From positions 62,001 to 126,000 of the forward strand of contig NZ_JAAGNI010000261.1 in assembly GCF_010550605.1 (NCBI RefSeq): a DNA stretch of 64,000 nucleotides, given 5' to 3'. This DNA is from Streptomyces sp. SID9727. GTDB lineage: Bacteria; Actinomycetota; Actinomycetes; Streptomycetales; Streptomycetaceae. The notes beneath the pieces were generated by a model. That model was not told the origin of the DNA. It saw nothing but the letters and a program-made list of their open reading frames with translations, and made no database searches. Both the position numbers and the translations under genes were made by a program. This document shows positions 2,646-45,653 of the stretch, in pieces (position 1 is the stretch's first letter; every line of letters begins with the position of its first letter).

Positions 2646-3300
2646 GGGTTGTTCACGTCCCTGGAACAGTGGAGTGTGAGTGGGTCCGCGCATTCGGCCC
2701 CGCGTGCGCTCTCCGTCCGGCGATCACGCCGGGCGGGCCGACCGCGACAGAGCATATGTCCCATCCACGGAGAGCGCCAGCGACGCCTGGCCGCAAGGGT
2801 GTTGACGGAACGTCAGGTAATTTTGGCCCGCGTCGGTGCGTGGCCTGCGGCATACGGCATGTGCGTGTCGTATGTTGGTGCATTGATTGCGCTTTTGCCC
2901 CTGTAATTCTGGTGACAGAAATCTCGCATTCCGCTTGTGGTTGACTCTGTAACTGCTTGACGCCGCCTGGGGTGCTCATTAGAGTGAACAGCAATTCAAA
3001 AGGCTTTCAGTGTGCGGGCTGATGTGCGCTCGCACGGCTGGTCGGCCGGACGAGTCTCGCACGGGGGAGTGGTTCAAGTTGAGGTATGCGGTGCGGACGG
3101 ATGTATTGAGCATCCGCTGAGGTGCCTTCGGGTTGTGGCGTGAAATTTGACCCGCCCTTTACCCTCGGTCTACCGATTTTTTCCCCCGCCGTTGAAGGCG
3201 GGTCACCAGTGGCTCTTCATATGGGCCCCCATTTGTACCTTTCCGGCTGCTCCATTCAGCGCGAGAAAGTGTGCCGAGGAAGTCTTGGTGGGAAATTTCC
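2646..3300. other. 655-bp divergent intergenic region between tyrA and PKS 1
   Basis: No gene is supported here. Base composition is clearly more AT-rich than the surroundings, especially 2820-3000 and 3140-3250, as expected for a control region. It contains a good promoter-like pair (2957-2985) reading towards PKS 1. In the presumed leader, GACCCGCC (3149-3156) can pair with GGCGGGTC (3197-3204) around a T-rich loop. The leader would be about 300 nt, long enough to hold regulator sites, but I see no recognised operator or riboswitch. Confidence 0.6.
2957..2985 (+). promoter_or_regulatory. Sigma-70 (HrdB)-type promoter for PKS 1
   Basis: TTGACG at 2957-2962 and TAGAGT at 2980-2985 are separated by exactly 17 bp, close to the consensus for the main vegetative sigma factor of Streptomyces. 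It points towards PKS 1, whose start is about 310 bp downstream. Assigned from sequence alone. Confidence 0.5.
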
Positions 3301-10665
<7,365 letters not shown>

Positions 10666-10935: not shown

Positions 10936-13900
10936 ATGACAGAACCCGGAAAGCACACCGACCCGGCGGAGTTTCTCGCCCGGCTCGCCCAGCACGGCGT
11001 ACGTCTGCGGCTGGTCGACGGCGAGCGCATCGAGGTGCGCGCAGCCGTCGGACAGCTGTCCGACGGGATCCGGCGCGAGCTCGCCGAGCGCAAGGCGGAA
11101 CTGATCGGCCTGCTCAAGCAGGGCGACGCCGCCGCGCTCCCGCAGATCGTCCCCGACGAGGACCGGCGGCACGAGCCGTTCCCGCCGTCCGACCTCCAGA
11201 TGTCGTTCCTGGTCGGCAGCAGCTCCCAGTTCGAGTACCACGTCCGGCCGCACCAGTACATGGAGTTCGACTTCGCGGAACTCGACCCCGAGCGCTTCGA
11301 GACCGCGCTGGGCGCCATGCTGCACCGCCAGCGCGGCAGCCTGGTGGTGGTGCGCGACGACCTCCAGCTGGAGACCGTCCGCGACCCGGCACCCGTGAAG
11401 GTCCGGGTCACCGACGTCCGGCAGGCCCCCGACGCGGAGGCGCAGGCCGTCATCGAGCGGACCAGGGACGAGATGCAGGCGGCCGAACTCCCGCTGGACA
11501 CCTGGCCGTGGATGGACGTACGGATCACCCGCTACGGCGACGGCCGGGCGCGGCTGCACTACAACAACAACAACTTCTTCAGCGACGGCCCCGGCACCGG
11601 CCGCTTCCTCGACAGCGTGCTGGCCAGCTACCACGAGCCGTCCGCAGCCCTGCCGGAACTGCAACTGGGATACCGTGACTGCGTGCTGGCGCTGGCCGCC
11701 CTGGAGGAGTCCGAGCGCGGCGAAGCCTCCCGGAAGTACTGGTGCGACCGGATGGCCGACTGGCCACAGGCACCGGACCTGCCCCTGGTGACCGGCGCGG
11801 ACACCCGCAGCAGGGCCCAGCTGACCCGCCGCGAGTTCACCCTGACCGCCGCGCAGTGGAGCCGCTTCAAGCAGCACGCGACGGACAACGGCGTCACCGC
11901 GACCAACGCGGTGTACGCGGTGTACGCGGAGATCGTGGCGTACTGGAGCGGCTCACGGCACTTCCTGCTGAACAACATGATGACCCACCGGCTGCCGCTC
12001 CACCCGCAGATCACCGAGGTGGTCGGCAACTTCGCCTCGCTGTACCCGCTGGAGGTGGACTGGCGGCACGACGAGGCCTTCCGGGACCGCGCCGGACGGC
12101 TGCAGACCCAGGTCATGACGGACGTCGAGCACACCTACTGGAGCGGGGTGAAGGTCCTCCAGCAGCTCAACCAGGTGCGACGCACCCCCGGAAAGGCGGC
12201 CTGCCCGTTCGTGGTGGGCAGCGGCCTGTTCATGGGGCACCTGGACCAGCCCGTCTTCAGCCACCTGGAGACCCCGCAGGTGCTGCTCGACAACCAGTTC
12301 TGGGAGCAGAGCGACGGCGGCCTCTGGGTGGTCTGGGACCTGATCGAGAGCATGTTCCCGGCAGGGCTCATCGACGCCATGCACACCGCCTACCGCGAGC
12401 TGCTCCTGCTGCTCGCCGAAGACCCGGCCGCCTGGGCCCGCTCCTCCTTCGACCTGCTGCCCGCCGAACAGCGCGCCCGCCGCGCCGCGGTCAACGACAC
12501 CGGCCGCTCCGTCCCCGAGGGCCTGCTCGGCCGCGCACTGCCCCAGCAGGCCGGCCGACGGCCCGGCGCGAGCGCCGTGGTGGCGGCGGACGGCACCCTC
12601 GACTACGCGCAACTGCGGGAACGCGCGCAGGAGCTGGCTGCCCTCCTGCACCGCAACGGCGTCCGGCCCGCGGACTGCGTCGCCGTCCTGCTGCCCAAGG
12701 GCGCCGAACAGATCGCCGCCGTGCACGGCGTGCTCGCGGCGCGGGCCGCCTACGTGCCCATCGACCCCGGCTGGCCCCGGGAACGCGTGGGCGAACTTCT
12801 CGCGGACGCACGCGTCACCGCGGTGCTCACCTCCGAGGCCGAGCGGGACTCGCTCGTCCCGGTCGCCGGCTGCCCCGTACTGGCGACGACGCAGGCGACA
12901 GCCGTGCCGGGCCCGCCGGCCGTGCCCGAGGGCGATCCGGGGGACACCGCGTACGTGATCTACACCTCGGGGTCGAGCGGCAAGCCCAAGGGCGCCATGC
13001 TCGACCACACCGGCCCGCTGAACACCGTGGTCGACATCAACCGCAGGTTCGCCATCGGCCCGGACGACGTCGTCTTCGGCGTCTCCTCGCTCTGCTTCGA
13101 CCTGTCCGTCTACGACGTCTTCGGCACCGCGGAGGCCGGCGCGACCCTGCTGCTGCCACCGCCCGGTACCACCGATCCGGGGCAGTGGGCCGACCTGGTC
13201 CAGGAACACGGGGTCACGGTCTGGAACTCCGTACCCGCCCTCATGCAACTGTTCGCGGAGGCCGCGGAGCAGGCCGGTCTGACCTTCCCGGCACTGCGTG
13301 TGGTCCTGCTGAGCGGCGACTGGATCCCGGTCCAGCTCCCGGCGCTGATCGGCCGGATCGCCCCGCACGCGCGGGTGGTGAGCCTCGGCGGTGCGACCGA
13401 GGCCTCGATCTGGTCCATCCACCACCCGATCGACCGGGTCGACCCCGACTGGGCGAGCATCCCGTACGGCCGCCCGCTCGGCAACCAGCACTGGCGGGTG
13501 CGGGACGCGGTCGGCCGGGACGCCCCCGACCGGGTCACCGGCGACCTGTACATCGGCGGTACCGGCGTCGCGCTCGGCTACCTCAACGACCCCGACCGGA
13601 CGGCGGCCTCCTTCGTCACCGACCCGGTCACCGGCGAGCGGCTGTACCGCACCGGCGACCTCGGCCGCTATCTGCCCGACGGGGACATCGAGTTCCTGGG
13701 ACGCGCCGACTTCCAGGTCAAGATCCAGGGCTTCCGGGTGGAACCGGGCGAGATCGAGCACGCGCTCGCCCAGCACCCCGCCGTACGGCACGCGGTCGTC
13801 GTCGCCCGCACCGCGGGATCGGGGCGGCAACTGGCCGGGTACGTCGTCGCCGAGCACGACGCACCGCGCCCGCGGCCGGAGGAGCTCATCGCCCACCTGG

Positions 13901-15150
13901 CCGACCGGCTGCCCGGCCACCTCGTGCCGAGCTTCGTCGTCGTCCTCGACGCACTCCCGCTCACCGCCAACGGCAAGCTGGACCGCCGCGCCATCGAGGC
14001 GATAGGCCCGACGTACGACGACCGGGCCCGGACGCACACCCCGCCGGGGACGGAGACCGAGAAGGCCCTCGTGGAGATCTGGGAGTCCGTCCTGGGGGTC
14101 GACCGGATCGGCATCCACGACGACTTCTTCGACCTCGGCGGGCAGTCCTTCGCGGCGCTGCGCGTCATCGGCATGGTCGGTACGCGGCTGGGGCTGCGCG
14201 CCCCGCTCGGGGCGCTGCTGGAACGCCGCACCGTCGCCGCCCTCGCCGAGCTGCTGGAACAGGACACCGGGCAGGACACCTGGTCCCCGCTGGTGGCGCT
14301 CGACGACACCGGCGAGGGGACGCCCTGGGCGCTGGTGCACCCGGCCGGCGGGAACGTGCTCTGCTACCGGGGCCTCGCGGAACTGCTGGACGGCCCCTGC
14401 CACGCCTTCCAGGCACCCGGCCCCGGCGTCGGCAGGCAACCGCTGGACACCGTGGAGGCGCTGGCCGAGTGCTACGCCGAGGCGCTGCTCGCCGTCCGCC
14501 CGCACGGGCCCTACCGGGTGGCCGGCTGGTCGTCGGGCGGGGTGATCGCCTTCGAGCTCGCCCGGCTGCTGGAGCAGCGGGGCGAGACCGTGGAGCGACT
14601 CGTGGTGATCGACTCCCCGGCCCCGGAGCGGGCCCTGGACCAGGAGGCGTCCGGGACGGGCGCGACCGGCGGGACGGAGAGGGCCGACGGAGCCGACGAG
14701 GCGGCCATGCTGCTGTGGTTCCTGGAGGACCTCGACGTCGGCTTCGACCCGGCGGCCGTCCGGCCGTCCGCGGCGGCGGAACTGGCCGCCGCGCCGGAGC
14801 CGGAGCGGCTCGCCCGCGCGGTGGAGCTCGCCCGCGCCCAGGGCCTGGAGGTCCCCGAGGCCGCGGACCTGGCGCTCAGCTGGCCGGTGTTCCGCGGGGT
14901 CATCACCGCCTGCCACCGCTACCGCGCGCGCACCGTCGCGGCCGACGTCACCGTGGTCCGGGCCGCGCACGGGAGGGTGAGCGAGTTCGAAGGCCACCCC
15001 CACACGGAATCCGCGGAGTGGGGCTGGGCCCCGCTCACCGGCGGCCGCACCACCGCCGCCACGACCGACGGCACCCACCACACCCTGCTCACCGGCGCCC
15101 ATGTCGCGGCCGTCGCCGCGCTCATGACCACGTGTCCGGCTCAGCACTGA
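10936..15150 (+). CDS. NRPS, docking-Cy(atypical)-A(Cys)-PCP-TE
   Basis: A 1404-residue terminal NRPS. A TubC-type docking domain occupies residues 1-60, a heterocyclisation-family condensation domain about 75-500, an adenylation domain about 530-1020, a PCP with Ser1071 in GGQSF, and a thioesterase about 1130-1400 with Ser1199 in GWSSG. Specificity positions read by alignment to GrsA give D-L-Y-N-L-S-L-I-W-K, the usual cysteine code. The Cy motif DxxxxDxxS is changed to NNFFSDGPG at residues 212-220, so the first Asp and the Ser are lost; heterocycle formation is doubtful. The TE should release the chain by hydrolysis or cyclisation. Start ATG 10936 has TAGGAG 10 bp upstream. The gene precedes NRPS-B although its TE marks it as the last module. 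Confidence 0.93.
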   Translation: MTEPGKHTDPAEFLARLAQHGVRLRLVDGERIEVRAAVGQLSDGIRRELAERKAELIGLLKQGDAAALPQIVPDEDRRHEPFPPSDLQMSFLVGSSSQFEYHVRPHQYMEFDFAELDPERFETALGAMLHRQRGSLVVVRDDLQLETVRDPAPVKVRVTDVRQAPDAEAQAVIERTRDEMQAAELPLDTWPWMDVRITRYGDGRARLHYNNNNFFSDGPGTGRFLDSVLASYHEPSAALPELQLGYRDCVLALAALEESERGEASRKYWCDRMADWPQAPDLPLVTGADTRSRAQLTRREFTLTAAQWSRFKQHATDNGVTATNAVYAVYAEIVAYWSGSRHFLLNNMMTHRLPLHPQITEVVGNFASLYPLEVDWRHDEAFRDRAGRLQTQVMTDVEHTYWSGVKVLQQLNQVRRTPGKAACPFVVGSGLFMGHLDQPVFSHLETPQVLLDNQFWEQSDGGLWVVWDLIESMFPAGLIDAMHTAYRELLLLLAEDPAAWARSSFDLLPAEQRARRAAVNDTGRSVPEGLLGRALPQQAGRRPGASAVVAADGTLDYAQLRERAQELAALLHRNGVRPADCVAVLLPKGAEQIAAVHGVLAARAAYVPIDPGWPRERVGELLADARVTAVLTSEAERDSLVPVAGCPVLATTQATAVPGPPAVPEGDPGDTAYVIYTSGSSGKPKGAMLDHTGPLNTVVDINRRFAIGPDDVVFGVSSLCFDLSVYDVFGTAEAGATLLLPPPGTTDPGQWADLVQEHGVTVWNSVPALMQLFAEAAEQAGLTFPALRVVLLSGDWIPVQLPALIGRIAPHARVVSLGGATEASIWSIHHPIDRVDPDWASIPYGRPLGNQHWRVRDAVGRDAPDRVTGDLYIGGTGVALGYLNDPDRTAASFVTDPVTGERLYRTGDLGRYLPDGDIEFLGRADFQVKIQGFRVEPGEIEHALAQHPAVRHAVVVARTAGSGRQLAGYVVAEHDAPRPRPEELIAHLADRLPGHLVPSFVVVLDALPLTANGKLDRRAIEAIGPTYDDRARTHTPPGTETEKALVEIWESVLGVDRIGIHDDFFDLGGQSFAALRVIGMVGTRLGLRAPLGALLERRTVAALAELLEQDTGQDTWSPLVALDDTGEGTPWALVHPAGGNVLCYRGLAELLDGPCHAFQAPGPGVGRQPLDTVEALAECYAEALLAVRPHGPYRVAGWSSGGVIAFELARLLEQRGETVERLVVIDSPAPERALDQEASGTGATGGTERADGADEAAMLLWFLEDLDVGFDPAAVRPSAAAELAAAPEPERLARAVELARAQGLEVPEAADLALSWPVFRGVITACHRYRARTVAADVTVVRAAHGRVSEFEGHPHTESAEWGWAPLTGGRTTAATTDGTHHTLLTGAHVAAVAALMTTCPAQH

Positions 15151-15170: not shown

Positions 15171-18100
15171 ATGGACCACGACCTGATCTCGGAGCTCCAG
15201 CAGCTCGGCATCAAGCTGAGGCTCTCCGGAGACAAGCTCGACGTGATCGCGCCGCCCGGCGCGCTCACCGCCCCGCTCCGGGACGCACTGCGGGCGCAGC
15301 GCGACGAGTTGGTGACCATGCTGCGCGCCGCGGAGCAGGACGCCGAAGCGGCCCCGCTCACCGCGGGACACGAAGAGCGTCACGAGCCCTTCGTGCTGAC
15401 AGACATCCAGCACGCCTACTGGATCGGCCACAACCGAGCCCTGGAACTGGGCGGGGTGGCCACCCACTTCTACTTCGAGCTCGACCGTGACGGCCTCGAC
15501 GTGGCACGCCTCGAGCGCAGCCTGCGCAAGGTCATCGCCCGGCACGACATGCTCCGCGCCGTGGTCGGCCCGGACGGCCGCCAGCGGGTGCTGCCCGAGG
15601 TCCCGGAGTACGAGATCCGGTTCTACGACCGGACGGACGCGGACCAGGACTCCTTCGAGGAGCACCTGCGCACCCTGCGCGGCGAGCTCGACCACCAGGT
15701 CCTCGCCCCCGACATCTGGCCGCTGTTCGACATCCGCGCCACCTCGCACCGCGAGGGGCTGCGCCTGCACATCAGCCTCGATCTGCTGATCATGGACGCC
15801 TACAGCTTCGACCTGCTCTTCCGTGACTGGCAGCACTACTACGAGGACGAGAGCTGGGACCCCGAGCCGTTCGCCATCGGCTACCGGGACTTCGTCCTCG
15901 CGGAAGAGGCCAAGCGCGGCAGCGCCCGCCACCAGGCCGCCGAGAAGTACTGGCTGGACCGGCTCGACGAACTGCCGCCCGCCCCCGACCTGCCGCTGGC
16001 GGTCCAGCAGGGCCCCGCGGAGAGCACCGTCTTCACCCGGCGCCGGGCCGCGCTGCCCCGCGAACAGTGGGCCCTGGTCAAGAAGTACGCCCAGGAACGC
16101 GGCCTCACCCCCTCCACGGTCCTGCTGGCCGCCTTCACCGACGTACTGCGCCTGTGGTCGCTGCAGAGCGACTTCACGCTCAACCTGACCCTCTTCAACC
16201 GGCCCGCGGAGGCCCACCCTCAGATCGGCGGGATCATCGGCGACTTCACCTCGCTGACCCTGCTCCAGATGAGCGGCGGCCAGGACGAGACCTTCGCCCG
16301 GCGCACGGCCGGCTTCCAGCAGCAGCTGATGCGGGACCTGGAACACCTGTCGTACAGCGGCGTGCGGGTCCTGCGGGAGCGCGCCCGCAGGCGCGGCGCC
16401 GGTCTCGGCGCGGCCATGCCGATCGTCTTCACCAGCGCCCTCGGGTTCTCGGGGGACACCGACGCGATGGACGGCATGGCCTTCTTCGGAGAGTACCGGC
16501 ACGGCGTGAGCCAGACCCCGCAGGTCTGGCTCGACCACCAGGTGCTGGAGGAGAACGGCGAGCTGGTCTTCAACTGGGACGCGGTGGAGGCCCTGTTTCC
16601 CGAGGGCCTGCTCGACGACATGTTCGCCACCTTCCGGACCCTGCTGGACAGGCTGAGCAGCGAGCCGGGCCTGTGGGACGCGCTGGGGCCCACCGTCTCG
16701 GCCCCGAGCCCGCAGCTGGCGGCGCGCACCGGCGTCAACGCCACCGCGCTGGAGCTGCCCGGCGGAACCCTGTTGAGCATCGTCGCCGACCAGGCGCTGC
16801 GCACACCGGACGCCACGGCGGCGGTGTCCGAGGACGGCAGCCTCCGCTACAGCGAGGCGATGGCCTCGGCCCACCGGCTCGCCCACCGGCTCACCGCGCT
16901 CGGCGCCGCGCCGGGCACCCTGGTCGGCGTCGTACTGGACCGGAGCCTGGAACAGATCCCGGCGGTCCTCGGCGTGGCGGCCTCCGGGGCGGCCTATCTG
17001 CCCGTCGATCCGCAGTGGCCCGCGGCCCGGCGGCAACAGCTGCTGGAATCCGGCCGGGTGAGCATCGTGGTGACCTCGGCCCGCCACCGGGACGGTCTCG
17101 ACTGGCCCGAGCAGACGATCCTGGTGGCTCTGGACGACGACGAGACCCTGGCACAGCCGTCCACCGCACCGGACACCGCGCCCGCGCCGGAGGACCTCGC
17201 CTACGTCATCTTCACCTCGGGGTCCACGGGCTCTCCCAAGGGCGTGATGATCGACCACCGGGGCGCCGTCAACACCGTCCAGGACCTCAACAGGCGCTTC
17301 TCGGTCGGCCCCGCGGACCGGGTGCTCGCCCTGTCGTCGCTCACCTTCGACCTCTCCGTCTACGACGTCTTCGGCACCCTCGCGGCCGGCGGCACCGTCG
17401 TCCTGCCGAGCCCCGAGCGCGCGCACGACCCGGCCCACTGGGCCGAGCTGGCCGAGCGCCACGGCGTCACCGTGTGGAACTCGGTGCCCGCCCTGATGCA
17501 GCTCTGGGCCGACTCGCCCGCCCGGCTGTCCGAGGAACGCGCGGGCGACCTGCGGCTGGTACTGCTCAGCGGCGACTGGATACCGGTGGCACTGCCCGAC
17601 GCGGTGCGTGCCCGCCACCCGCGCGCCGAGGTCATCAGCCTGGGCGGGGCCACCGAGGCGTCCATCTGGTCGGTGCACTACCCGATCGGCGAGGTCCCGC
17701 CCCAGTGGACCCGGATTCCGTACGGCAAGCCGCTGGCCAACCAGACCCTGCACGTCCTCGGCGACCGTTTCGAGGAACGGCCGGTGTGGGCGACCGGCGA
17801 GATCTGGATCGGCGGCACGGGCGTGGCCATGGGCTACTGGGCCGACCCGGAGCGCACCGCGGAGCGCTTCGTACGGCACCCGCGCTCGGCTGAACTGCTC
17901 TACCGCACCGGCGACCTCGGACGCTACCTGCCCGACGGAAACATCGAGTTCCTGGGACGCGCCGACTTCCAGGTGAAGCTCAACGGATACCGGGTGGAAC
18001 TCGGCGAGATCGCCGCCACCCTGGAGCGGCTCCCCTCGGTGGGCCGGGCGGTCGTCCGGGTGGACACCAACCCCGTCACCGGCCGCCGCCAGCTCGTCGC

Positions 18101-18552: not shown

Positions 18553-20106
18553 GTGAGTACGCGAGAAGGGGTCCCGTACTGGGACGACGTGGTCGTCGGC
18601 GCGGGCTCGGCCGGAGCGGTCCTCGCCGCCCGGCTGTCCGAGCGGCCGGAACGCCGGGTGCTGTTGATCGAGGCGGGCGAGCCCCCGGACGCCGCGGGCG
18701 GGTCGCGGGAGCAGGCCGGGGTGCCCGTCCTCGCGGGCCGCAACTGGGACTACACCGCGCGGGCCTCCGCCGGCGGCAGACGGGAATTCCCGTACGCGGT
18801 CGGCAGGACCCTCGGCGGTTCCTCCGCCGTCAACGGCGCGCTCGCCCTGCGTCCGCTGCCCGCGGACCTCGACGTCTGGGCGGCGGCCGGCAACCCGGAG
18901 TGGACCTGGGAGCGACTGCTGCCGTACCTGGTCGGGTTGGAGACGGACCACGACGTCAAGGGCCCCGAGCACGGCACGGACGGGCCGCTGCCGATCCACC
19001 GGGTGGCCCGGGAGTCGCTCGCCACCACCGCACAGGCCTTCCTCCAGGGCTGCCGGCAACTCGGGCTGCCCGCTCTGGAGGACCTGAACTCCGGTGCCGC
19101 GCTCGGCGCCGGAATCACTCCCGCCAACGCCGTAGGAGACCGCCGGATCTCCACCGCGGAGAGCCATCTCGCGGCGGCCCGGGAGCAGCCCAACCTGACC
19201 CTGTGGACCGGCACCGTGGCGGCCCGGGTGCTGCTGGACGGCCACCACCGGGCCACCGGCGTCGAGGTGTGGCGCGACGGGCGGCTCCAGCGCGTCGGGG
19301 CGGGCCGGGTCGTCCTGGCGGCGGGCGCGGTCAACACGCCCGCGGTGCTGCAGCGTTCGGGCATCGGCGACCCCCGGCTGCTGGCCGGACTCGGCATCGA
19401 TCCCGCCCTGGACCTGCCCGGCGTGGGACAGAACCTCGCCGACCACCCCGCGATCGTGCTCTGGTCGGAGCCCCGCCCTGGTGTCTGCCGGGCGGGCAGC
19501 AGCTGGCACCAGGTCACCGCGCGCTCCGCGTCCGATCCGGCCGCGGCGGGCGGCGCGGCGGACCTCGGGCTGTTCCTGCTGGACGCGGTGCCCACGGCGG
19601 CCAATCCGCTGATCGGCGGCATGCTCCGCGCCGAGCTGGCGGTGGGGCTGTCCGCCATGGTGCTGCGGCCCGCCTCCCGCGGCTCGGTCACGATCCGCGA
19701 CGCGGACCCCTCGACCCCACCGGAGATCGTCCTCGGCCTGGCCACCGACCCGGCCGACGTGGAGCTCCTGATGGCCGCCGTACGGCAGGCCTGGGCACTC
19801 CTGCGGTCGGCGCCGATGGCCGGCCTGCTGGAACGGGTCCTGGTGTGGACCGACCGGATGGTCCGCGAGGACAAGATGCTGCGCGGAGCCGTCACCCGCT
19901 TCGTCTCGCCCAGCTGGCACGCCGTCGGCACCGCTCGCATGGGACCGGCGGACGACCCGGGGGCCGTGGTGGACCAGCGCTGCCGGGTCCACGGCGCCGA
20001 GGGGCTGTACGTGGTCGACGCTTCGGTGCTCCCGGTGATGCCCAGCGCCCCTCCGAACCTGACATGCCTCGCACTCGCCGAAAGGGTGGCCCGATGGATG
20101 GGCTGA
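18553..20106 (+). CDS. GMC-family FAD oxidoreductase
   Basis: A 517-residue glucose-methanol-choline family flavoprotein. The N-terminus carries the FAD-binding VVGAGSAGAVLAARL and an E residue (IEAGE) for the ADP-ribose. The GMC signature GRTLGGSSAVNG is near residue 90, and the C-terminal catalytic segment is HAVGTARMG with PSAPPNLTC near the end. These enzymes oxidise alcohols or C-H bonds with O2. GTG 18553 follows a GGAGGTGA that overlaps the NRPS-B stop, so the gene is translationally tied to the NRPS. Since neither NRPS has an oxidase domain, this enzyme may oxidise the thiazoline or a hydroxyl on the chain, which is inference only. Confidence 0.9.
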   Translation: MSTREGVPYWDDVVVGAGSAGAVLAARLSERPERRVLLIEAGEPPDAAGGSREQAGVPVLAGRNWDYTARASAGGRREFPYAVGRTLGGSSAVNGALALRPLPADLDVWAAAGNPEWTWERLLPYLVGLETDHDVKGPEHGTDGPLPIHRVARESLATTAQAFLQGCRQLGLPALEDLNSGAALGAGITPANAVGDRRISTAESHLAAAREQPNLTLWTGTVAARVLLDGHHRATGVEVWRDGRLQRVGAGRVVLAAGAVNTPAVLQRSGIGDPRLLAGLGIDPALDLPGVGQNLADHPAIVLWSEPRPGVCRAGSSWHQVTARSASDPAAAGGAADLGLFLLDAVPTAANPLIGGMLRAELAVGLSAMVLRPASRGSVTIRDADPSTPPEIVLGLATDPADVELLMAAVRQAWALLRSAPMAGLLERVLVWTDRMVREDKMLRGAVTRFVSPSWHAVGTARMGPADDPGAVVDQRCRVHGAEGLYVVDASVLPVMPSAPPNLTCLALAERVARWMG

Positions 20107-20951
20107 CGTACCGCTCCACCACCGCCCGGGAAGGGGAGTGGGCCGTCCGCCGCCGGCCGCTGCCACAGGCCCGGATGCGGCTCTTCTGCGTGGCGCACGC
20201 GGGCGGCGGCGCAGGCGCCTTCCGCTCCTGGGCGCCGTACCTGGAGCCCGGGATCGAGGTCGTCGCGATCCGTCTTCCGGGGCGCGAGACCCGCTTCCGC
20301 GAGCGCCCCTACGACCGGCTCGACGACCTGCTGCCGCCACTCCTGCGGAGCATCGCCCCGCTGCTCGACCGGCCGCACGCCTGGTTCGGCCACAGCATGG
20401 GCGCGGGCATCGCGTTCGAGGTCTGCCGTGCCCAGCGCCGGCTCGGGCTGCCCGATCCGGACCGGCTGCTCGTCGCGGGCCTGCCCGCACCGCACCTGCC
20501 GCGCCGGGCGACCCCGGTGCACGACGCGCCGGCCGCGGAACTCCTCGCCCGAATCGGCCAGTTGCACGGGACGGAGGACGCAGGCAGGGAGAACGGGACC
20601 CCGGTGAGCGGCGAGGCCGGCGCCACCCCGGCGGGCAACCCGATGCTGAACGTCATGCTGCCCACCCTGCGGGCCGACTTCGCCGTGGCCGAGACCCACA
20701 CCCACCGCCCCGGCCCGGCGCTTGACTGCCCGCTCACCGTCTACGGAGGCCGGTCGGACGCCTCCACCACGAGGGAGGAACTCGCGGCCTGGTCGAGGCA
20801 CTCCGATGCCGACACGACCGTCCGCCTCTTCCCCGGCGGGCACTTCTTCCCGCACGACGACCCGGACGGCTTCCTGCCCGTGCTGGCGGACGACCTGCTC
20901 GGCGGGCGGTCGCACCACGAGCCGGTGAGCAGCGGGGCGTACGGTCACTGA
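20094..20951 (+). CDS. Type II thioesterase (first of three)
   Basis: A 285-residue alpha/beta hydrolase of the editing thioesterase family, with the nucleophile in GHSMGAG, the oxyanion segment AHAGGGAG and a C-terminal GGHFF carrying the catalytic His. These proteins free carrier domains of stalled or wrong acyl groups. ATG 20094 overlaps the GMC oxidase end by 13 bp and has AAAGGG upstream, so it is the last gene of the PKS-NRPS operon. An insertion of about 20 residues (rich in Gly, Glu and Thr) near residue 165 is longer than in typical family members. Confidence 0.9.
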   Translation: MDGLTYRSTTAREGEWAVRRRPLPQARMRLFCVAHAGGGAGAFRSWAPYLEPGIEVVAIRLPGRETRFRERPYDRLDDLLPPLLRSIAPLLDRPHAWFGHSMGAGIAFEVCRAQRRLGLPDPDRLLVAGLPAPHLPRRATPVHDAPAAELLARIGQLHGTEDAGRENGTPVSGEAGATPAGNPMLNVMLPTLRADFAVAETHTHRPGPALDCPLTVYGGRSDASTTREELAAWSRHSDADTTVRLFPGGHFFPHDDPDGFLPVLADDLLGGRSHHEPVSSGAYGH

Positions 20952-22766: not shown

Positions 22767-23008
22767 CCGATCCCAGCGCGCGACCTTCCGCGGTCCGCAG
22801 CACAAGCGAGCCCTTAGCAGGGCGAACCACGATCGGCGGTGCCCCAGCAAGCCTCGCCGGCGCCAAGCCTGCGGATCTCGGAGAGGTCAGGCACAGACGT
22901 TGACAAGTTTCCGCACCCCTACGGAACTGACCCTGGACCGAGGAGCCGTGGCCCGCGGCCTCGTCGCCCGCACCACCGGCTCCACGCCGGCGCAGGCAGG
23001 TGTCTGAG

Positions 23009-24784
23009 ATGCAGGACCCGGCCTACCGCACCGCCGAGGAGCTGGACCGCTTCCTCGGCGACCCCGACGATCCGAGCGGCTGGTTCTCCCACGCGCGCTG
23101 CCTGGAACTCGACGAGAAGGAGGAGTTCCCCGCCGAGATCTGCCTCCGCCTCGACGACTGGGGGCTGCCCTCCTACTACGTACCCGAGGAGCACGGCGGC
23201 CGGCTGACTGGCTACCCGGGGCTGCTCCAGCTCATACGCGTCCTCGCCCGCCGCGATCTCACCGTCGCGATCGGCCACGGCAAGACCTACCTCGGCGGCG
23301 TCTGCGTCTGGGTGGCGGGACACGCGGAGCAGGCCGCGCGCCTGGGCGCCGATGTCCGGGCCGGGGTTCCCGTCTCCCTCGGCCTGACCGAGCGCGACCA
23401 CGGCAGCGACCTGCTCGCCGGCGAGGTGCGCGGCGCCGCCGGCGCCGAGGGCTGGCTGGTCAGCGGCGAGAAATGGCTGATCAACAACGCCACCCGGGGC
23501 AGCCTGCTGTCCCTGCTCACCCGCACCGACCCGGCCGGAGGCCCGCGCGGCTTCAGCGTCCTGCTGGTGGACAAGCGCGAGCTGGACAAGGACGTGTACC
23601 ACCACCTGCCGAAGGTCCACACGCACGGCATCCGCGGCGCCGACATCTCCGGCATCGCCTTCGACCAAGCCCGCGTCGACCGCTCCGCACTGGTCGGCGC
23701 CGAGGGCGGAGGTCTGGAGATCGCACTCAAGGCGCTCCAGCTGACCCGCACCCTGTGCGCCGCCCTCTCCCTGGGCGCCGCGGACCACGGCCTCAGGCTC
23801 GCCGTCGACTTCACCCTGCGGCGTGAGCTGTACGGCAAGCTGCTGGGCGACCTGCCGCAGGCGCGCCGGACGCTGGGCACGGCCGCGGCCGACGTACTGC
23901 TGCACGAGGCGCTGGCAATCGTCGCCTCCCGCCTGGTGCACACCCAGACCGACGAGATGAGCATCACCGCGGCGGTCACCAAGTACACACTGCCCAGCGG
24001 GACCGAGGACGTTCTCGCCCGGCTCACCCAGCTGCTCGGCGCCCGCGCCTTCCTGAAGGGCGTCCACGCGGGCGGCATGTTCCAGAAGGTCGAGCGTGAC
24101 CACCGGATCGTCGGCCTGTTCGACGGGAACACGCTGGTCAACCTGAACTCCCTGGTCAATCAGTTCCGGTCGCTGATGCGCGGCCGACGGCGCGGCACCG
24201 GCGACGTGGCCGGTGCCCGGGCGGCCTACGACCTGTCCCTGCCGGTGCCGGAGCTCCGGCCCGACCGGCTGTCCCTGGTGGCACGGCACGGCAGCGGCGT
24301 CCTGGCCGGGCTCGGCGAGTCCGTCGCCCGGCTGACCGAGCTGGCCGGGGAGCAGCCCGCGCTGGCCCCGGCCGCCGAGGCCGCCCGGCGGATCGCGGAC
24401 GTCAGCGACCGCGTCCACGCCGAGATGGAACGGTGGCAGGGCGTGCTCGGGGACGTGCCGCCCGCCGCGTTCGAGACCGCCCGCCGCTACACCCTCTGCC
24501 ACACGGCGGCGGTATGCCTCGGCCTGTGGACTCACAGCGCGCGCCTGTTCACCGGCACCAGCGCCGCCCCGCTGTGGCAGGACGGCCTGTGGCTGCGCGC
24601 CGCCCTCGGCCGGCTGCTGGAGCGGCTGGGCGAGCCGGACGCCGGGGACGGCGAGGCGTACGAGGAACTGGTCGAGCACCTGGTCGCCACCCGGCGCTCC
24701 GGCGAGCTCTTCTCGCTGCACCCCTACCGGCTGCCGACGGAAGGCCTCCGGCCGGCGGACGACCCGACCACCGTGGGCAACTGA
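23009..24784 (+). CDS. Acyl-CoA dehydrogenase-like flavoprotein 1
   Basis: A 591-residue large-type acyl-CoA dehydrogenase. It has a helical N-terminal domain, a beta domain with GLTERDHGSD and GEKWLINNA, and a C-terminal helical domain including the R-D-H-R segment near residue 370. The catalytic base of the family (Glu in YEGT) aligns with Asp in LFDGNT (codon at 24122-24124). Such enzymes desaturate acyl thioesters at C2-C3, sometimes on carrier proteins. ATG 23009 is preferred over GTG 23000, which would sit directly on the GGCAGG ribosome site. It is followed by a paralogue after 22 bp, and the pair is probably co-expressed. The 242 bp upstream hold no gene, only a CCTTAG variant (22812-22817) of the recurring hexamer. 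Confidence 0.88.
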   Translation: MQDPAYRTAEELDRFLGDPDDPSGWFSHARCLELDEKEEFPAEICLRLDDWGLPSYYVPEEHGGRLTGYPGLLQLIRVLARRDLTVAIGHGKTYLGGVCVWVAGHAEQAARLGADVRAGVPVSLGLTERDHGSDLLAGEVRGAAGAEGWLVSGEKWLINNATRGSLLSLLTRTDPAGGPRGFSVLLVDKRELDKDVYHHLPKVHTHGIRGADISGIAFDQARVDRSALVGAEGGGLEIALKALQLTRTLCAALSLGAADHGLRLAVDFTLRRELYGKLLGDLPQARRTLGTAAADVLLHEALAIVASRLVHTQTDEMSITAAVTKYTLPSGTEDVLARLTQLLGARAFLKGVHAGGMFQKVERDHRIVGLFDGNTLVNLNSLVNQFRSLMRGRRRGTGDVAGARAAYDLSLPVPELRPDRLSLVARHGSGVLAGLGESVARLTELAGEQPALAPAAEAARRIADVSDRVHAEMERWQGVLGDVPPAAFETARRYTLCHTAAVCLGLWTHSARLFTGTSAAPLWQDGLWLRAALGRLLERLGEPDAGDGEAYEELVEHLVATRRSGELFSLHPYRLPTEGLRPADDPTTVGN

Positions 24785-24806
24785 CGTGAGCAATCGAGAG
24801 GACGCC

Positions 24807-26576
24807 ATGCCGATGGGCAGCACGGCCAACGGGCCGTACGGAGCGGGGCCGTACCCGCCCGGCGGTCAGGAGGACCGGGTCGTCGCCCGGATCGCCGAGC
24901 TGGAGAAGCGACTGGGCGACCCCACCGACGCGTACGGCGAGATCTCGTACGCCAGGCTGCTGGAGGCCGACGAGCGCGCGGAGGTGTCCAAGGACGGCGA
25001 ACGGGCGCTGGACGACCTGGTGCTCAACGCGGACTTCGTGCCCCACCGGCTCGGCGGCCGGCTGGAGCGTGTCGACACCCTCGTACGGGTGATGCGGCAG
25101 GTCTTCCGCCGCGACATCACCCTCGGCCTCGGCTACGGCGTCACCTCCTTCATGGCCGCCGTCAACGTCTGGCGATCAGGCACCGGCGAGCAGCAGCGGC
25201 GCCTCGCCGACCTGCTGCTGGACGGGGGGAAGGTGTCTGTCGCCTTCCACGAGCTCGCGCACGGGAACGACTTCGTGCACAACGAGTTCCAGGCCCGCCC
25301 GGTGGCCGGGGGATATCTGCTGAACGGCGCCAAGCAGGTCATCAACAACGCCGACCGGGCCGCCGCCTGGGTGCTGTTCAGCCGCACCAGCCCCGCGCCC
25401 GGCAGCCGCAGCCACTCGGTCGTGCTGGCCGAAGGAGCCGGGCTCGACCAGGACCGGTACCGCCTCCTGCCCCGCTACGACGCGGTCGGCGTGCGCGGCT
25501 GCCACCTGTCGGGCCTGGAGTTCACCGACTGCCCGGTCCCCGCCTCCGCGCTCGTGGGCGACGAGGGCAAGGGCGTCGAACTCGCCCTGCAGGCCTTCCA
25601 GATCACCCGCAGCGCCCTCCCCGGCATGGCTCTCGGGGCCGCCGACACCGCCCTGCGCACCGTCACCGGCTTCGCGCTCGGCCGACGGCTGTACCGCAAG
25701 TCCGTCATGGACATCCCGCACGCGAGGGCCACCCTGTCGGCCGCCTTCCTCGACCTGCTGATCTGCGACAGCCTCTCGCTGGCCGCGACCCGCGCCGTGC
25801 ATGTGCTGCCGGACCAGACCAGTGTCTGCGCCGCCGCGGTCAAGTACCTGGTGCCGAAGATGCTCACCGAGGCGATGTACGACCTGTCGATCGTGCTCGG
25901 CGCCCGGTTCTACGTCCGGGAGGGCGAGTTCGGGATCTTCCAGAAGCACGTGCGCGACCTGCCGGTGCTGAGCCTCGGCCACGCCGGCTCGGCCGCCTGC
26001 CAGGCCACGATCATTCCCCAGCTGTCCCGGCTCGCGCGCCGCTCCTGGTTCAGCGACGACCCGGCGCCGGGAGCGGTCTTCCGGCTGCACGACGAGCTGC
26101 CGGACATCCCGTTCGACCGGCTCACCCTGGCCAGTGGCCGCGACGGGATCAGCGCCTCGCTGGTCGCGGCCGTCGACGAACTGCCCACCGGCACCCCCGA
26201 GGAGCGGTCGGCGCACGGTGTCGCGCTGCGCCTCGTGGAGGAGCTGCGGCGGGTCCAGGAGCAGAGCCTCGGCCTCGCCCCCCGGGACCGCACCGCCCTG
26301 GCCAGTCCGAGCGCCTTCGCCCTGGCCGACCGGTACGCGGTGCTGCTCGCCGCCGCCTCGGTGATCGGCGTCTGGCAGCAGGCCCAGGGCGGCTCCGACA
26401 GCTTTCTCGCCGACCCGGCGTGGCTGGGCGCCGCCCTGCACCGGCTCGCCCGGCGTCTCGGCCTGTCCGTGCCCGACCTGCCCGGATCCTGCGAGGAGCG
26501 GCTGCACAAAGAGGTGCTGGCCCGCTTCCGGGGGTCCCGCAGCTACGACCTGTACGACACCCCGCTGGCCGGCTGA
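24807..26576 (+). CDS. Acyl-CoA dehydrogenase-like flavoprotein 2, catalytic base missing
   Basis: A 589-residue paralogue of the preceding gene with the same layout: FHELAHGNDF in the flavin-facing loop, NGAKQVINNAD in the beta domain, and RDLPVL in the final helical domain. The residue aligning with the catalytic Glu is His in SLGHAGS (codon at 25980-25982), and no acid is nearby. It may have lost dehydrogenase chemistry, use another residue, or act as a partner of the first protein. ATG 24807 has GAGGA 5 bp upstream; GTG 24786 has no ribosome site. Its C-terminal sequence YDTPLAG reappears in a decayed fragment at 49794-49921. Confidence 0.85.
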   Translation: MPMGSTANGPYGAGPYPPGGQEDRVVARIAELEKRLGDPTDAYGEISYARLLEADERAEVSKDGERALDDLVLNADFVPHRLGGRLERVDTLVRVMRQVFRRDITLGLGYGVTSFMAAVNVWRSGTGEQQRRLADLLLDGGKVSVAFHELAHGNDFVHNEFQARPVAGGYLLNGAKQVINNADRAAAWVLFSRTSPAPGSRSHSVVLAEGAGLDQDRYRLLPRYDAVGVRGCHLSGLEFTDCPVPASALVGDEGKGVELALQAFQITRSALPGMALGAADTALRTVTGFALGRRLYRKSVMDIPHARATLSAAFLDLLICDSLSLAATRAVHVLPDQTSVCAAAVKYLVPKMLTEAMYDLSIVLGARFYVREGEFGIFQKHVRDLPVLSLGHAGSAACQATIIPQLSRLARRSWFSDDPAPGAVFRLHDELPDIPFDRLTLASGRDGISASLVAAVDELPTGTPEERSAHGVALRLVEELRRVQEQSLGLAPRDRTALASPSAFALADRYAVLLAAASVIGVWQQAQGGSDSFLADPAWLGAALHRLARRLGLSVPDLPGSCEERLHKEVLARFRGSRSYDLYDTPLAG

Positions 26577-36910: not shown

Positions 36911-37435
36911 GCCGGGGTCACCGGACCGGCGGAGGCGGAGGGCCGGAGGAACAGCGAGGCGGGCACCTCGACCCGGAGCCGGGACAGCCCCTGGCGGGCG
37001 TGCTCGAACGGATCGACGCCGGCATCGCCGCACTGCTGCCCGGCTGCCACGTTGCCGGGGGCGGGAGAAGGACCGCCGGTCGGCGGACCCGCACCTCGTG
37101 GTCAGCGACGGGTCGCCGAGCCGGTCAACGGCACGCCGATGCCCGCCGACCGCTCGGACGGTCTGCCGTCGCCGACAGGCCGTCACGGATCACGGGCCGT
37201 CATGGATCACGGAGGGACCATTGACCGACGAGGACGCAACGCGTCGTGTTCGTCGCGGCCGGCCGTACACCGAGGCTGACCAGCGACATCATCGTGACCG
37301 GCGCTCACTAAAGCCCTGGATAAGCCGATCTTTTTCGTCCGGCGGCGGCGATGTAGGTTCGCCGAAATCCCGCCTCCTCGAGCGGGAACGGGTTCACGCA
37401 CTGTGATGGGCCGTGAGAGCTCAGGGGGTTGCCAG
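36911..37435. other. 525-bp intergenic region before the FabH gene
   Basis: No intact gene. CTAAAG at 37308-37313 is an inverted copy of the recurring CTTTAG hexamer, 123 bp before the FabH start, and the sequence from 37300 is AT-richer and promoter-like. A minus-strand reading of about 36920-37050 gives a peptide ending VEVPASLFLRPSAS, reminiscent of the end of LacI-type regulators, but it is too short to call. Confidence 0.5.
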
Positions 37436-38470
37436 ATGTCCGCAACATATCTCACCACTAGCGACGTACCCGGAAGGCGGGCGCAGGCCGCGGCGGTCAT
37501 CGCCGGTCTCGGAACCTGCCTGCCGACCACCGAGATCGACAACGACGCTCTGTCCAGGGATCTGGACACCAGCGACGCGTGGATCCGCACCCGTACGGGC
37601 GTCGAGGCCAGGCGCCGGGTCGATCCACAGACGTCGATGCGCGATCTGGCCTGTGCCGCCGGCGCGAACGCCCTGCGTTCGGCAGGTGTGAACACGGCCG
37701 ACGGTCTGATCCTCGCCACGTCCACTCCGGACCGCCCCTGTCCCGCCGGCGCCCCGGAGGTCGCCTCCCGCATCGGCCTCGGTCAGGTGGCGGCGTTCGA
37801 CATGGCCGCGGTCTGCAGCGGCTTCGTCTACGCAGTCGCCTCGGCGGCCGGCCTGATCACCAGCGGAATGCTCGACAGCGTCCTCGTGGTGGCCGCGGAG
37901 ACCTACTCCCGCATCGTCGACCCTGCGGACCGCGGCACGGCCGTGCTGTTCGGGGACGGCGCGGGTGCGGTTCTGCTGCGCCGCGGCACCGTGGACGAGC
38001 AGGGTGCCCTGCTCGCCTTCGACCTCGGCAGCGAGGGGGCGGACGCCGACTTGATCCACATTCCCGGCGTAGCGGAACAACCGACCGGAGAGCGCTGGTT
38101 CCGCATGTCGGGCCGGAAGGTCTACATACAGGCCATCGACCGGCTGGCGGGATCGGCACTGCGGGTGACCAAGGACTGCGGCTGGGGTCCGGAGGACATC
38201 GATGCCTTCGTCCCCCATCAGGCGAACGCCCGCATCATCGACGCGGTCGGGGACCGCCTGGGGCTGACGCCCGGGGCGGCGGTGAGCAATGTGGCCCGGC
38301 TCGCCAACACGGCGTCCGCGTCCATCCCGCTCGCCCTGGCCGACGGCGTCCGGTCGGGGCAGCTGAAGCCCGGCGCCCGAACCGTTCTCACTGCCTTCGG
38401 CGGTGGGCTGACCTGGGGCTCCATCGCCCTCACCTGGCCTGCGACCACACCTGTCGGCTCGGAGATCTGA
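37436..38470 (+). CDS. 3-oxoacyl-ACP synthase III (FabH-like)
   Basis: A 344-residue KAS III with the complete triad: Cys127 in AAVCSGF, His in VPHQANARI near residue 262, and Asn in ANTASASIP. It should condense a short acyl-CoA with malonyl-ACP to start a dedicated acyl chain. ATG 37436 has AGGGGG 8 bp upstream. Followed by an ACP and a KAS II gene, it forms a small fatty-acid-like set of the kind seen in lipopeptide clusters such as that for CDA. The chain may be the acid later activated by one of the two FAALs; that is inference. Confidence 0.92.
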   Translation: MSATYLTTSDVPGRRAQAAAVIAGLGTCLPTTEIDNDALSRDLDTSDAWIRTRTGVEARRRVDPQTSMRDLACAAGANALRSAGVNTADGLILATSTPDRPCPAGAPEVASRIGLGQVAAFDMAAVCSGFVYAVASAAGLITSGMLDSVLVVAAETYSRIVDPADRGTAVLFGDGAGAVLLRRGTVDEQGALLAFDLGSEGADADLIHIPGVAEQPTGERWFRMSGRKVYIQAIDRLAGSALRVTKDCGWGPEDIDAFVPHQANARIIDAVGDRLGLTPGAAVSNVARLANTASASIPLALADGVRSGQLKPGARTVLTAFGGGLTWGSIALTWPATTPVGSEI

Positions 38471-38504
38471 ACCGCCGACTTCATCCATCGAAGGGAAAAC
38501 CCTG

Positions 38505-38741
38505 ATGTTCGTCGACTACCTCACCACCCTGCTCACCGGCGTGTACAAGGTTCCCGGCCCCATCGACGCCACGAAGTCCTTCCGGGATCTGGAGGTCGAC
38601 TCGTTGTCCCTGGCCGAGCTCGCCGCGCAGTTGGAGGACGAGTTCTCGATCACCGTCGAGGAGGAGGAGCTGGGACCGCAGACCACGGTGATCGAGCTGT
38701 CCGAGTTCCTCGAGACCCGGGGGGCGGTCCTGTCGGCATGA
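38505..38741 (+). CDS. Acyl carrier protein
   Basis: A 78-residue free-standing ACP with the phosphopantetheine serine in EVDSLSLAEL near residue 33 and an acidic helix II-III typical of fatty-acid-type carriers. Ribosome site GAAGGG precedes ATG 38505. The stop overlaps the KAS II start (ATGA), so the two are coupled, and the carrier probably serves the adjacent FabH and FabF. Confidence 0.93.
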   Translation: MFVDYLTTLLTGVYKVPGPIDATKSFRDLEVDSLSLAELAAQLEDEFSITVEEEELGPQTTVIELSEFLETRGAVLSA

Positions 38742-39976
38742 CCCGCCACACTCACTCTCGCCCCGATGTGACCATCACCGGCCTCGGGCTGGTGACGCCG
38801 GCCGGCGTGGACACCGAGTCGGCGTGGAAGACGACGTGCGAGGGGCGGCCCGCGGCAGCGGCAGATCCACGCCTCGCCGGCCTGGGGGTCCCGTTCAGCT
38901 GCTCCGTGACGGACTTCGACGCCGAGCTGACACTCGGTGTGGAAGCCCGGAGGATGGCCCACTTCACCCAGTTCGCTGTCGCCGCCGCCCGAGAGGCCGT
39001 CGCCGACGCGGGGGCGGCCGGCCATGTCTGGGATCCCACCAGGGTCGGCGTCGTGGTGGGAACCGGCATCGGAGGACAGGACACCTGGGAGGAACAGGGC
39101 GCGCGCATGCGGGACAGGAGCCCGCGCGCGGTCAACCCCCTGACGGTTCCCAAGGCCATCGGCAACATCGCCGCGACCACCATCGCCATGGACCTCGGGC
39201 TGCACGGGCCGTCGTTCAGCACGTCCACCGCATGCGCCACCGGAACCACGGCGCTGGGGCTCGCCCTCGACCTGCTGCGGGCGGGCCGCTGCGACGTGGT
39301 CCTGGCCGGCGGCACCGAAGCCGCCGTGACCCCGCTGGTCACCACGGCCTTCGACCGGCTCAAGGCCCTGTCCCGACGGCAGGACGACCCGTCCGGCGCG
39401 TCGCGTCCCTTCGATCAGGATCGTGACGGCTTCGTGCTCGCGGAGGGAGCGGGCGTCCTCGTCCTGGAGCGGACCGAGGACGCCCGGGCCCGTGGCCGCC
39501 GCGGCTACGCACGGCTGCTGGGGTACGGATCCACCACGGACGCCCACCACCTCACCGCCCCGGACCCCGAAGGCCGCATGGCACAACTCGCCATACAGCG
39601 GGCCCTGGAGGACGCGCAGCTCGACCCCGCGGACATCGGGCTCGTCAACGCCCACGCCACCGGCACACCGCAGGGCGACGCCGTCGAGGCTCGTCTGCTG
39701 GAGCGGGTCTTCGGGGGCAACGTCGCCGTCACGTCGACCAAGGGGGTCACCGGCCACATGCTCGGCGCGACCGGAGCCGTTGAGGCCGCGTTCACAGCCC
39801 TGTCGATACGGGACGGGCTGATACCGCCGACCGCCAACTTCCACGCGCCCGGGCCGGACATCGCCGGGGTGGACATCGTCCACGGCAATGCCCGGTCCAC
39901 GCAGGTGTCCGCAGCCGTGAGCAATTCCTTCGGCTTCGGTGGGCACAACGCAGTGGTCGTTCTCGGCCGCGCCTGA
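38738..39976 (+). CDS. 3-oxoacyl-ACP synthase II (FabF-like)
   Basis: A 412-residue KAS II with active-site Cys in STACATG, His in NAHATGTPQGD and His in KGVTGHMLGA, so fully catalytic. There is no chain-length-factor partner, so this is an elongating fatty-acid-type synthase rather than half of a type II aromatic PKS. It would extend the chain begun by the FabH at 37436. Ketoreductase, dehydratase and enoyl reductase functions are not encoded alongside and must come from primary metabolism or be absent. Confidence 0.92.
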   Translation: MTRHTHSRPDVTITGLGLVTPAGVDTESAWKTTCEGRPAAAADPRLAGLGVPFSCSVTDFDAELTLGVEARRMAHFTQFAVAAAREAVADAGAAGHVWDPTRVGVVVGTGIGGQDTWEEQGARMRDRSPRAVNPLTVPKAIGNIAATTIAMDLGLHGPSFSTSTACATGTTALGLALDLLRAGRCDVVLAGGTEAAVTPLVTTAFDRLKALSRRQDDPSGASRPFDQDRDGFVLAEGAGVLVLERTEDARARGRRGYARLLGYGSTTDAHHLTAPDPEGRMAQLAIQRALEDAQLDPADIGLVNAHATGTPQGDAVEARLLERVFGGNVAVTSTKGVTGHMLGATGAVEAAFTALSIRDGLIPPTANFHAPGPDIAGVDIVHGNARSTQVSAAVSNSFGFGGHNAVVVLGRA

Positions 39977-45547: not shown

Positions 45548-45653
45548 GCACGGCACAGAGCCCGGCGCCGGGCCGGGCCGGGCACACGCAAGGAAGGCTT
45601 AAGTGGCGTCCCGCAGGCTTGGCGTGTCCGTCGGGCTCGGCGAAGGAGAGGCT

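Follow-up and report, generated by a model that had tools for sequence, protein, structure and literature searches.

Heterocyclisation (Cy) domains of nonribosomal peptide synthetases (NRPSs) that only condense, or that form esters, have already been published; the descriptions of them given here follow excerpts of the cited papers. The Cy-derived domain of AzsO (azaserine) has its dyad Thr replaced and carries out one acyl transfer without ring closure in a protein with an N-terminal docking domain, and 129 of 1165 putative Cy domains carry a Thr-to-Asn change (PMC10445470). For the pxb cluster, Cy domains that stop at the amide or thioester have been proposed, with condensation of cysteine but no thiazoline suggested for Cy3 and Cy4 of PxbG (piscibactin/photoxenobactin) (PMC9396620). 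CaeA2 (caerulomycin) combines a polyketide synthase (PKS) chain with cysteine in a non-thiazoline Cy outcome, in a cluster with an acyl-CoA-dehydrogenase-like flavoprotein (PMC8149447), while DtpB (thiolutin), a protein of the order Cy, adenylation (A), peptidyl carrier protein (PCP), yields uncyclised Cys-Cys from cysteine. In AngR (anguibactin) the first Asp of the Cy motif is replaced by Asn (PMC6836290). We describe a new variant among these, the Cy-derived domain of NRPS-A, a protein encoded in a 64,000-nucleotide stretch of Streptomyces sp. SID9727 (contig NZ_JAAGNI010000261.1, positions 62,001 to 126,000; hereafter the window). For the leading reading we see about an even chance: this domain would join cysteine to an acyl chain supplied by the PKS, with no cyclodehydration, and pass an open cysteine to the thioesterase (TE) domain.

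Window positions 11563-11592 translate to NNNNFFSDGP (NRPS-A residues 210-219), and residues 210-220 read NNNNFFSDGPG. Translation thus confirms what an earlier note on this DNA had reported, namely a motif N-x4-D-xx-G at residues 212-220 of NRPS-A (N212, D217, G220) and an intact one at residues 204-212 of the adjacent NRPS-B (DLLIMDAYS); the span assigned to the former, 11563-11592, covers the motif up to three bases short of the end of the Gly220 codon. Where functional Cy domains have DxxxxDxxS, NRPS-A therefore has N-x4-D-xx-G; in the catalytic Thr-Asp dyad, Thr has become Gly428 and Asp452 is kept, and the helper Gln is present (Gln454). Overall, NRPS-A shares with canonical Cy domains the second motif Asp, the dyad Asp, the helper Gln and a cysteine-type A domain, whereas it differs from them at the first Asp and the Ser of the motif, the dyad Thr, the gate Phe, the tunnel Tyr, the floor Asp and Thr, and the latch Gln.

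The earlier note had held that the first Asp and the Ser matter for cyclodehydration, a claim that the papers cited here do not bear out, as they give the motif aspartates a structural or bond-forming role and let the Thr-Asp dyad drive ring closure. The DXXXXD aspartates are described as structural, with cyclodehydration dependent on the Asp-Thr dyad and a nearby Gln (PMC9547227), and changing the first Asp to Ala in one Cy domain merely halved one product (PMC9396620). The stronger evidence for lost cyclisation comes from the replacement of the dyad Thr by Gly428, the gate Phe by Thr350 and the tunnel Tyr by Phe91, rather than from the motif. Of the proposal that NRPS-A only condenses and leaves an open cysteine, the conclusion is retained on other grounds (wider residue losses, intact A code, PCP Ser and TE Ser) and the reason given for it is not.

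Twelve positions were compared: the three of DxxxxDxxS and nine from the HMWP2 Cy2 structure paper (PMC9547227), located in the alignment through their spacing (tunnel Tyr, Thr and gate Phe of the NLTLFNR stretch, floor Asp and Thr, latch Gln, dyad Thr and Asp, and helper Gln) and chosen after the alignment was viewed. The comparison set comprised 59 other Cy domains, the matches closest to NRPS-A in each locus-keeping search, a non-random choice whose bias should lessen the contrast. Two Cy matches lacking a stored locus (G788:C53 and G1186:C1), repeats of loci already included (L069, L080, L081, L083 and L098), and the L040 copies of the OK074 NRPS-A and NRPS-B, which repeat L046, were left out. 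A clade carrying the NRPS-A motif, the existence of which the earlier note had proposed to look for, was found with 11 members, although the last motif position varies (nine Gly, one Ala and one Cys). Nine of its members have lost 9 of the 12 positions and the other two have lost 10, as compared with none (16 domains), one (16), two (13), three (1), four (5), five (6), six (1) or seven (1) in the 59 others and none in the five NRPS-B rows. The first motif position is Asn throughout the clade and in none of the others (57 Asp, 1 Ser, 1 Glu); the gate position is Thr in all members and in no other domain, where Phe occurs 38 times; and the dyad Thr position holds Gly (6) or Ser (5) in the clade and Thr (50), Ala (7) or Ser (2) elsewhere. 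Phe91, Asn210-213, Met348, Thr350, Cys423 and Glu445 are invariant in the clade; among the 59 others F91 was seen once, N213 twice, and N212, M348, T350, C423 and E445 never. These losses speak for the leading reading, as does the precedent of Cy domains proposed to form an amide or thioester only (PMC9396620), although PxbG Cy4 has the DXXXXDXXS motif (mutated there at D2771); its likeness to NRPS-A was judged from published descriptions.

Several observations weigh against this reading. The dyad Asp452 is kept in all members and helper Gln454 in 9 of 11, and five members have Ser at the lost-Thr position, which leaves room for residual or altered cyclisation. The dyad Thr is also absent from some other Cy domains (7 Ala and 2 Ser of 59), the DxxxxD motif is said to be important for peptide bond formation (PMC10445470), and AngR, with the same first-Asp-to-Asn change, has been called non-functional (PMC6836290). 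An active site rebuilt around Asp452 and Gln454 might still make thiazoline, a possibility to which Ser429 following the dyad Thr position (11/11) and Asn346 (9/11) would lend support, as would the Thr-to-Ala changes seen in the Cy domains L011-L013, L017, L085, L087 and one more. The second motif Asp is likewise kept in all 11 members. We regard such a site as improbable, since the 9-10 changed positions include the gate Phe and tunnel Tyr and changed together, and mutation of the gate Phe severely lowered cyclodehydration in work cited by PMC9547227. Ordinary thiazoline formation by the NRPS-A domain appears very unlikely, and an open cysteine would be the simplest outcome.

The domain is a Cy domain by descent, with a fold predicted to be intact. 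Its best solved relatives are eight Cy sequences, from EpoB (E 2.3e-68) to PchE (7.5e-31), with ordinary condensation (C) domains at E values of at least 2.9e-06. An AlphaFold2 model based on an alignment of 13 sequences from the window and its relatives reached a mean predicted local distance difference test (pLDDT) score of 90.7 and a predicted template modelling (pTM) score of 0.89. In a Foldseek search of the PDB with this model, the 19 top rows were all Cy structures (TM score to query 0.81-0.91; 0.84-0.91 for EpoB, BmdB Cy2, HMWP2 Cy2, PchE and FmoA3), the first non-Cy structure being at rank 20. The ratio of nonsynonymous to synonymous substitution rates (dN/dS, NG86 method) against Streptomyces sp. 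DvalAA-43 is 0.22 in the Cy domain, 0.29 in the A domain and 0.33 in the TE, and Cy is the lowest of the three in all four ortholog pairs (DvalAA-43, NBC_01435, Amycolatopsis and OK074; dS is 0.7-0.9 for the latter two), which argues that the domain is in use.

The remaining domains of NRPS-A look equally intact. The nine code positions of the A domain read DLYNLSLIW in NRPS-A and NRPS-B alike, which we take to be a cysteine code, so that the full code described earlier stands; 7 of 9 relatives share it, L051 has DLYNMSLIW and L049 is cut. PCP Ser1071 and TE Ser1199 are intact in NRPS-A, and all nine NRPS-A-type rows covering these two serines have them. A TE of the obafluorin type, with a cysteine active site, was ruled out by the ordinary serine in GWSSG. 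The free thiol might serve in release by this serine TE, a use that the earlier note had suggested. These features also bear on whether the Cy domain is simply dead, with another enzyme joining the cysteine, as for AngR, whose first Asp likewise became Asn and whose domains are described as non-functional (PMC6836290). AngR has, in addition, lost its PCP serine, whereas NRPS-A combines the Asn with a retained PCP serine; the Cy domain is also the most constrained of the three, and its changes are common to members from Actinomycetota and Gammaproteobacteria. A dead domain therefore has very little probability.

The clade was assembled mainly by scanning 84,980 species genomes for two peptides, HYNNNNF and FPP[SP]DLQM, which gave eight loci with a related domain. 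Six of these (L045, L047-L051) carry only HYNNNNF, which was thus a condition for their detection; OK074, Streptomyces sp. NBC_01435 and L082 came from searches without that filter, and all three carry HYNNNNF. F91, M348, T350, C423 and E445 played no part in finding members. Identity over the domain is 89% in Streptomyces sp. DvalAA-43, 66% in Amycolatopsis saalfeldensis and OK074, 58% in Saccharothrix deserti and Saccharothrix sp. S26, 56% in Lentzea cavernae, 46% in an Alteromonadaceae metagenome-assembled genome (MAG) and 39% in a gammaproteobacterial MAG. A plasmid of NBC_01435 (84% over NRPS-A) and L082, a relative of Saccharothrix sp. S26, hold further members. The 11 members, including the window, thus come from Streptomyces, Amycolatopsis, Saccharothrix, Lentzea, the S26 relative and two gammaproteobacterial MAGs.

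A maximum-likelihood tree was built from 49 rows (10 of the clade, without L082; 36 other Cy-type domains; and three C domains of one genome). The clade rows form a single group (100/100) within Cy, and the Cy side is split from the three ordinary C domains by a 100/100 branch. The clade's neighbours are the Cy domains L011-L013 and L029, in a joint group (99/97) that also includes a third Cy domain of OK074. Few genomes carry a member: by the exact peptide pattern, 2 of 392 in the window's genus were positive, the window's own among them, and at E 1e-90 the window's genome was the one positive among 396 of the phylum. In the order to which the Alteromonadaceae MAG belongs, the MAG itself was the one positive among 293 genomes (726 bits; next match 291), and in the family of Saccharothrix sp. 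S26 there were 4 positives among 200 (769-796 bits; next match 343), with no intermediate among the matches listed in these four scans. Judged from the sequences, the shared motif change is not decay. The third OK074 protein, of the order Cy-A-PCP-TE (L040 10767-15572), has the motif S-x4-D-xx-G, keeps the dyad Thr and has lost 7 of the 12 positions. The Cy domains L011, L012 and L013, which belong to PKS-NRPS proteins (L068 is the annotated NBC_00162 copy), have Ala for the dyad Thr and have lost 5-6 of the 12; a luciferase-like monooxygenase and S-adenosylmethionine-recycling genes neighbour them.

The acyl donor is probably the PKS encoded upstream of NRPS-A (Table 1). A related PKS occurs in the cluster of all 11 members, adjoining NRPS-A in 10 and lying ~16.5 kb off in OK074. 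Nine of these PKSs show the AMP-ligase; the Amycolatopsis and Alteromonadaceae loci stop short of that part. The ketoreductase (KR) Tyr and dehydratase (DH) His motifs are present in all 10 aligned PKSs and an AFHS-type motif of the acyltransferase (AT) in 9 of them (L082 not included), which makes a malonyl-extended 2-enoyl chain the likely product. In all 11 PKSs, and in none of five NRPS-B proteins, an acidic stretch leads into a C-terminal Glu-x-x-x-Leu/Ile. Such acidic tails partner TubC-type docking domains, and Pfam places a TubC_N domain on both NRPS-A and NRPS-B. In the leading reading, the PKS would load its starter through the AMP-ligase, extend it once with malonyl and process it by KR and DH; its acidic C-terminal tail would dock on TubC_N of NRPS-A, whose Cy-derived domain would link the chain to cysteinyl-PCP through an amide bond, with no further step; and the TE would release a product whose cysteine is open and whose thiol is free. 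Whereas the domain order, changed residues, clade, constraint and predicted fold are seen in the sequence, we infer the docking, the chain order, the condensation itself, the absence of ring closure and the free thiol. Alternatively, the domain might accept a chain previously extended by NRPS-B with a thiazoline.

The flanks of related loci were compared with PKS, NRPS-A and NRPS-B as queries (matches of at least 45% identity). Four actinobacterial loci have no NRPS-B relative at this identity within 37-57 kb around NRPS-A; two MAG contigs are too short to judge. In those four loci NRPS-A adjoins the PKS and its Cy-derived domain is the sole C-type domain seen with it, so the acylation must be done there by this domain, if by anything, and the PKS would most simply feed NRPS-A directly. 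NRPS-B would then most simply be an addition in the Streptomyces/Amycolatopsis/OK074 group, either interposed between the PKS and NRPS-A or branching off to the side. The NRPS-B of Amycolatopsis saalfeldensis (L045 13994-18538) has a methyltransferase domain inside its A domain that the window's NRPS-B lacks. An oxidase insertion in relatives of NRPS-B was considered and rejected, as the extra ~390 residues in Amycolatopsis are this methyltransferase domain; the OK074 insertion is visible only as a gap.

The clade-specific Cys423 and Glu445 raise the question of whether a different bond is made. Cys423 may be a residue of interest in a possibly rebuilt active site with other chemistry. For instance, a thioester (S-acyl-cysteine) might be formed instead of an amide, much as AzsO, a Cy domain without the Thr-Asp dyad, esterifies serine (PMC10445470); thioester formation has been proposed as the first step of Cy catalysis (PMC9396620), and in NRPS-A the dyad Thr is gone and both residues have appeared. 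In AzsO, however, DxxxxD is kept, Asn stands for both Thr and Asp, serine is the substrate and there is no TE, whereas NRPS-A has an altered motif, the dyad Asp, a cysteine-type A domain and a TE. At the Thr position its clade has Gly (6) or Ser (5) and Asn in none of 11, the Asn being in the motif instead. An S-acyl cysteine with a free amine would also readily rearrange to the amide, and we hold this outcome to be distinctly unlikely. More generally, the Cy scaffold, with its HYNNNNF loop, Cys423, Glu445 and Asp452, might steer the cysteine thiol to a new target other than the fresh amide carbonyl, for example by conjugate addition to the 2-enoyl chain, giving a seven-membered 1,4-thiazepane, or by S-acylation. 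The clade would then form a new catalytic branch within the condensation superfamily; this broader proposal is speculative and unlikely.

The genes 3' of NRPS-B encode a GMC oxidoreductase, a thioesterase, a major facilitator superfamily (MFS) transporter and two acyl-CoA-dehydrogenase-like proteins. The latter, relatives of which occur in the DvalAA-43 locus, recall CaeA2, for which formation of a C-C bond with an oxidised cysteine, together with the acyl-CoA-dehydrogenase-like CaeB1, was proposed (PMC8149447). Formation of another bond such as this one by the NRPS-A domain seems highly improbable. CaeA2 requires a Ct domain after its PCP, whereas Pfam gives a TE at that place in NRPS-A and one Condensation match, with no second condensation-type domain; CaeA2 also retains DxxxxDxxS and has no TE, and its PKS chain is unreduced. 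With tblastn (E 1e-12 and 1e-15), neither flavoprotein gave a relative in L054 or in the Saccharothrix/Lentzea flanks.

The same set of GMC oxidoreductase, thioesterase, acyl-CoA dehydrogenase and MFS genes presumably resembles the holomycin cluster, a dithiolopyrrolone reading that was dropped. The A domains of that family, as in DtpB, carry a special Cys ~15 residues past the second core region, which is missing from this stretch of NRPS-A, and no thioredoxin-reductase-like oxidase or phosphopantothenoylcysteine-decarboxylase-like protein was found among the Pfam-scanned neighbours, a subset of the window's genes. Unlike DtpB, NRPS-A carries TubC_N and a TE.

Table 1. Features of the NRPS-A locus in the window, with a neighbouring gene set of related loci in the last row
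Feature	Position	Strand	Basis and remarks
PKS: AMP-ligase (probable fatty acyl-AMP ligase, FAAL)-acyl carrier protein (ACP)-ketosynthase (KS)-AT-DH-KR-ACP	3271..10665	+	Pfam; probable donor to NRPS-A
PKS C-terminal tail DVEVLTL, candidate docking motif	10642..10662	+	Glu-x-x-x-Leu/Ile ending in 11/11 clade-associated PKSs
NRPS-A: TubC_N-Cy-derived domain-A(Cys)-PCP-TE, 1404 aa	10936..15150	+	Pfam; ATG at 10936
TubC_N docking domain, NRPS-A residues 12-62	10969..11121	+	Pfam PF18563, E 7.7e-10
Cy-derived domain, NRPS-A residues 78-502	11167..12441	+	EpoB Cy best solved relative; tree; predicted fold
Phe91 replacing acceptor-tunnel Tyr	11206..11208	+	F in 11/11 clade, 1/59 others
Changed motif N212-x4-D217-xx-G220, NRPS-A	11569..11595	+	Translation, alignment
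Met348-x-Thr350 replacing Thr and gate Phe of NLTLFNR stretch	11977..11985	+	M and T in 11/11 clade
Cys423, clade-specific, five residues ahead of lost dyad Thr	12202..12204	+	11/11 clade, 0/59 others
Gly428 replacing dyad Thr	12217..12219	+	Clade G 6, S 5; others T 50, A 7, S 2
Retained dyad Asp452 and helper Gln454	12289..12297	+	Clade D 11/11, Q 9/11
A domain, cysteine-type code DLYNLSLIW, NRPS-A residues 537-1014	12544..13977	+	Pfam; code identity presumed
TE domain, NRPS-A residues 1133-1395, Ser1199 in GWSSG	14332..15120	+	Pfam, motif
NRPS-B: TubC_N-Cy-A(Cys)-PCP, without TE, 1125 aa	15171..18548	+	Pfam; ATG at 15171; 0/12 Cy positions lost
Intact motif D204-x4-D209-xx-S212, NRPS-B	15780..15806	+	Translation DLLIMDAYS
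GMC oxidoreductase	18553..20106	+	Adjoins NRPS-B in relatives too
Stand-alone thioesterase	20145..20951	+	Pfam; 80% relative in L054
Two acyl-CoA-dehydrogenase-like flavoproteins	23000-24784, 24786-26576	+	Pfam; relatives in DvalAA-43 locus L063
P-type ATPase with Cys-rich C-terminus, AhpD-like protein and MerR-type set, divergent to NRPS-A	L050 4841-9233, L047, L048, L100 12294-16542		

Farther 3' lie aminotransferase, glycosyltransferase, deoxysugar, ketosynthase, P450, FAD-oxygenase and FkbH-type genes. An FkbH-type protein (45603-47582) and a second AMP-ligase (47899-49671) are encoded in the window, and relatives of both stand side by side with those of the two acyl-CoA-dehydrogenase-like proteins in the DvalAA-43 locus L063; on this grouping, all four probably belong to the cluster. 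FabH-type and FabF-type ketosynthases are encoded at 37403-39976, and relatives of these (57% and 50%) lie near the PKS in OK074. A full-text literature search of openly licensed PMC papers gave no recognisable match to this cluster type.

In all four actinobacterial loci that lack NRPS-B, genes for a heavy-metal P-type ATPase, an AhpD-like protein and MerR-type regulators precede NRPS-A on the other strand. The ATPase scores above the TIGR01525 and TIGR01512 cut-offs and below that of the copper model, and it was absent from 59 other genomes of that family at the strict threshold of E 1e-200. The association was seen in these four loci, which are close relatives. The ATPase and MerR-type neighbours may suit a metal-binding thiol product.

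Genome-mining programs label any Cy-A(Cys) module as a thiazoline former, and this clade would be mispredicted by them. Its members provide a natural set of Cy domains, predicted to be well folded, in which most cyclisation-linked positions are lost and the dyad Asp is kept. Condensation and cyclodehydration could thus be compared within one cluster, between NRPS-A and NRPS-B, which have the same cysteine-type code and the same candidate donor PKS. The clade also points to clusters whose products may be lipids or polyketides with a free thiol.

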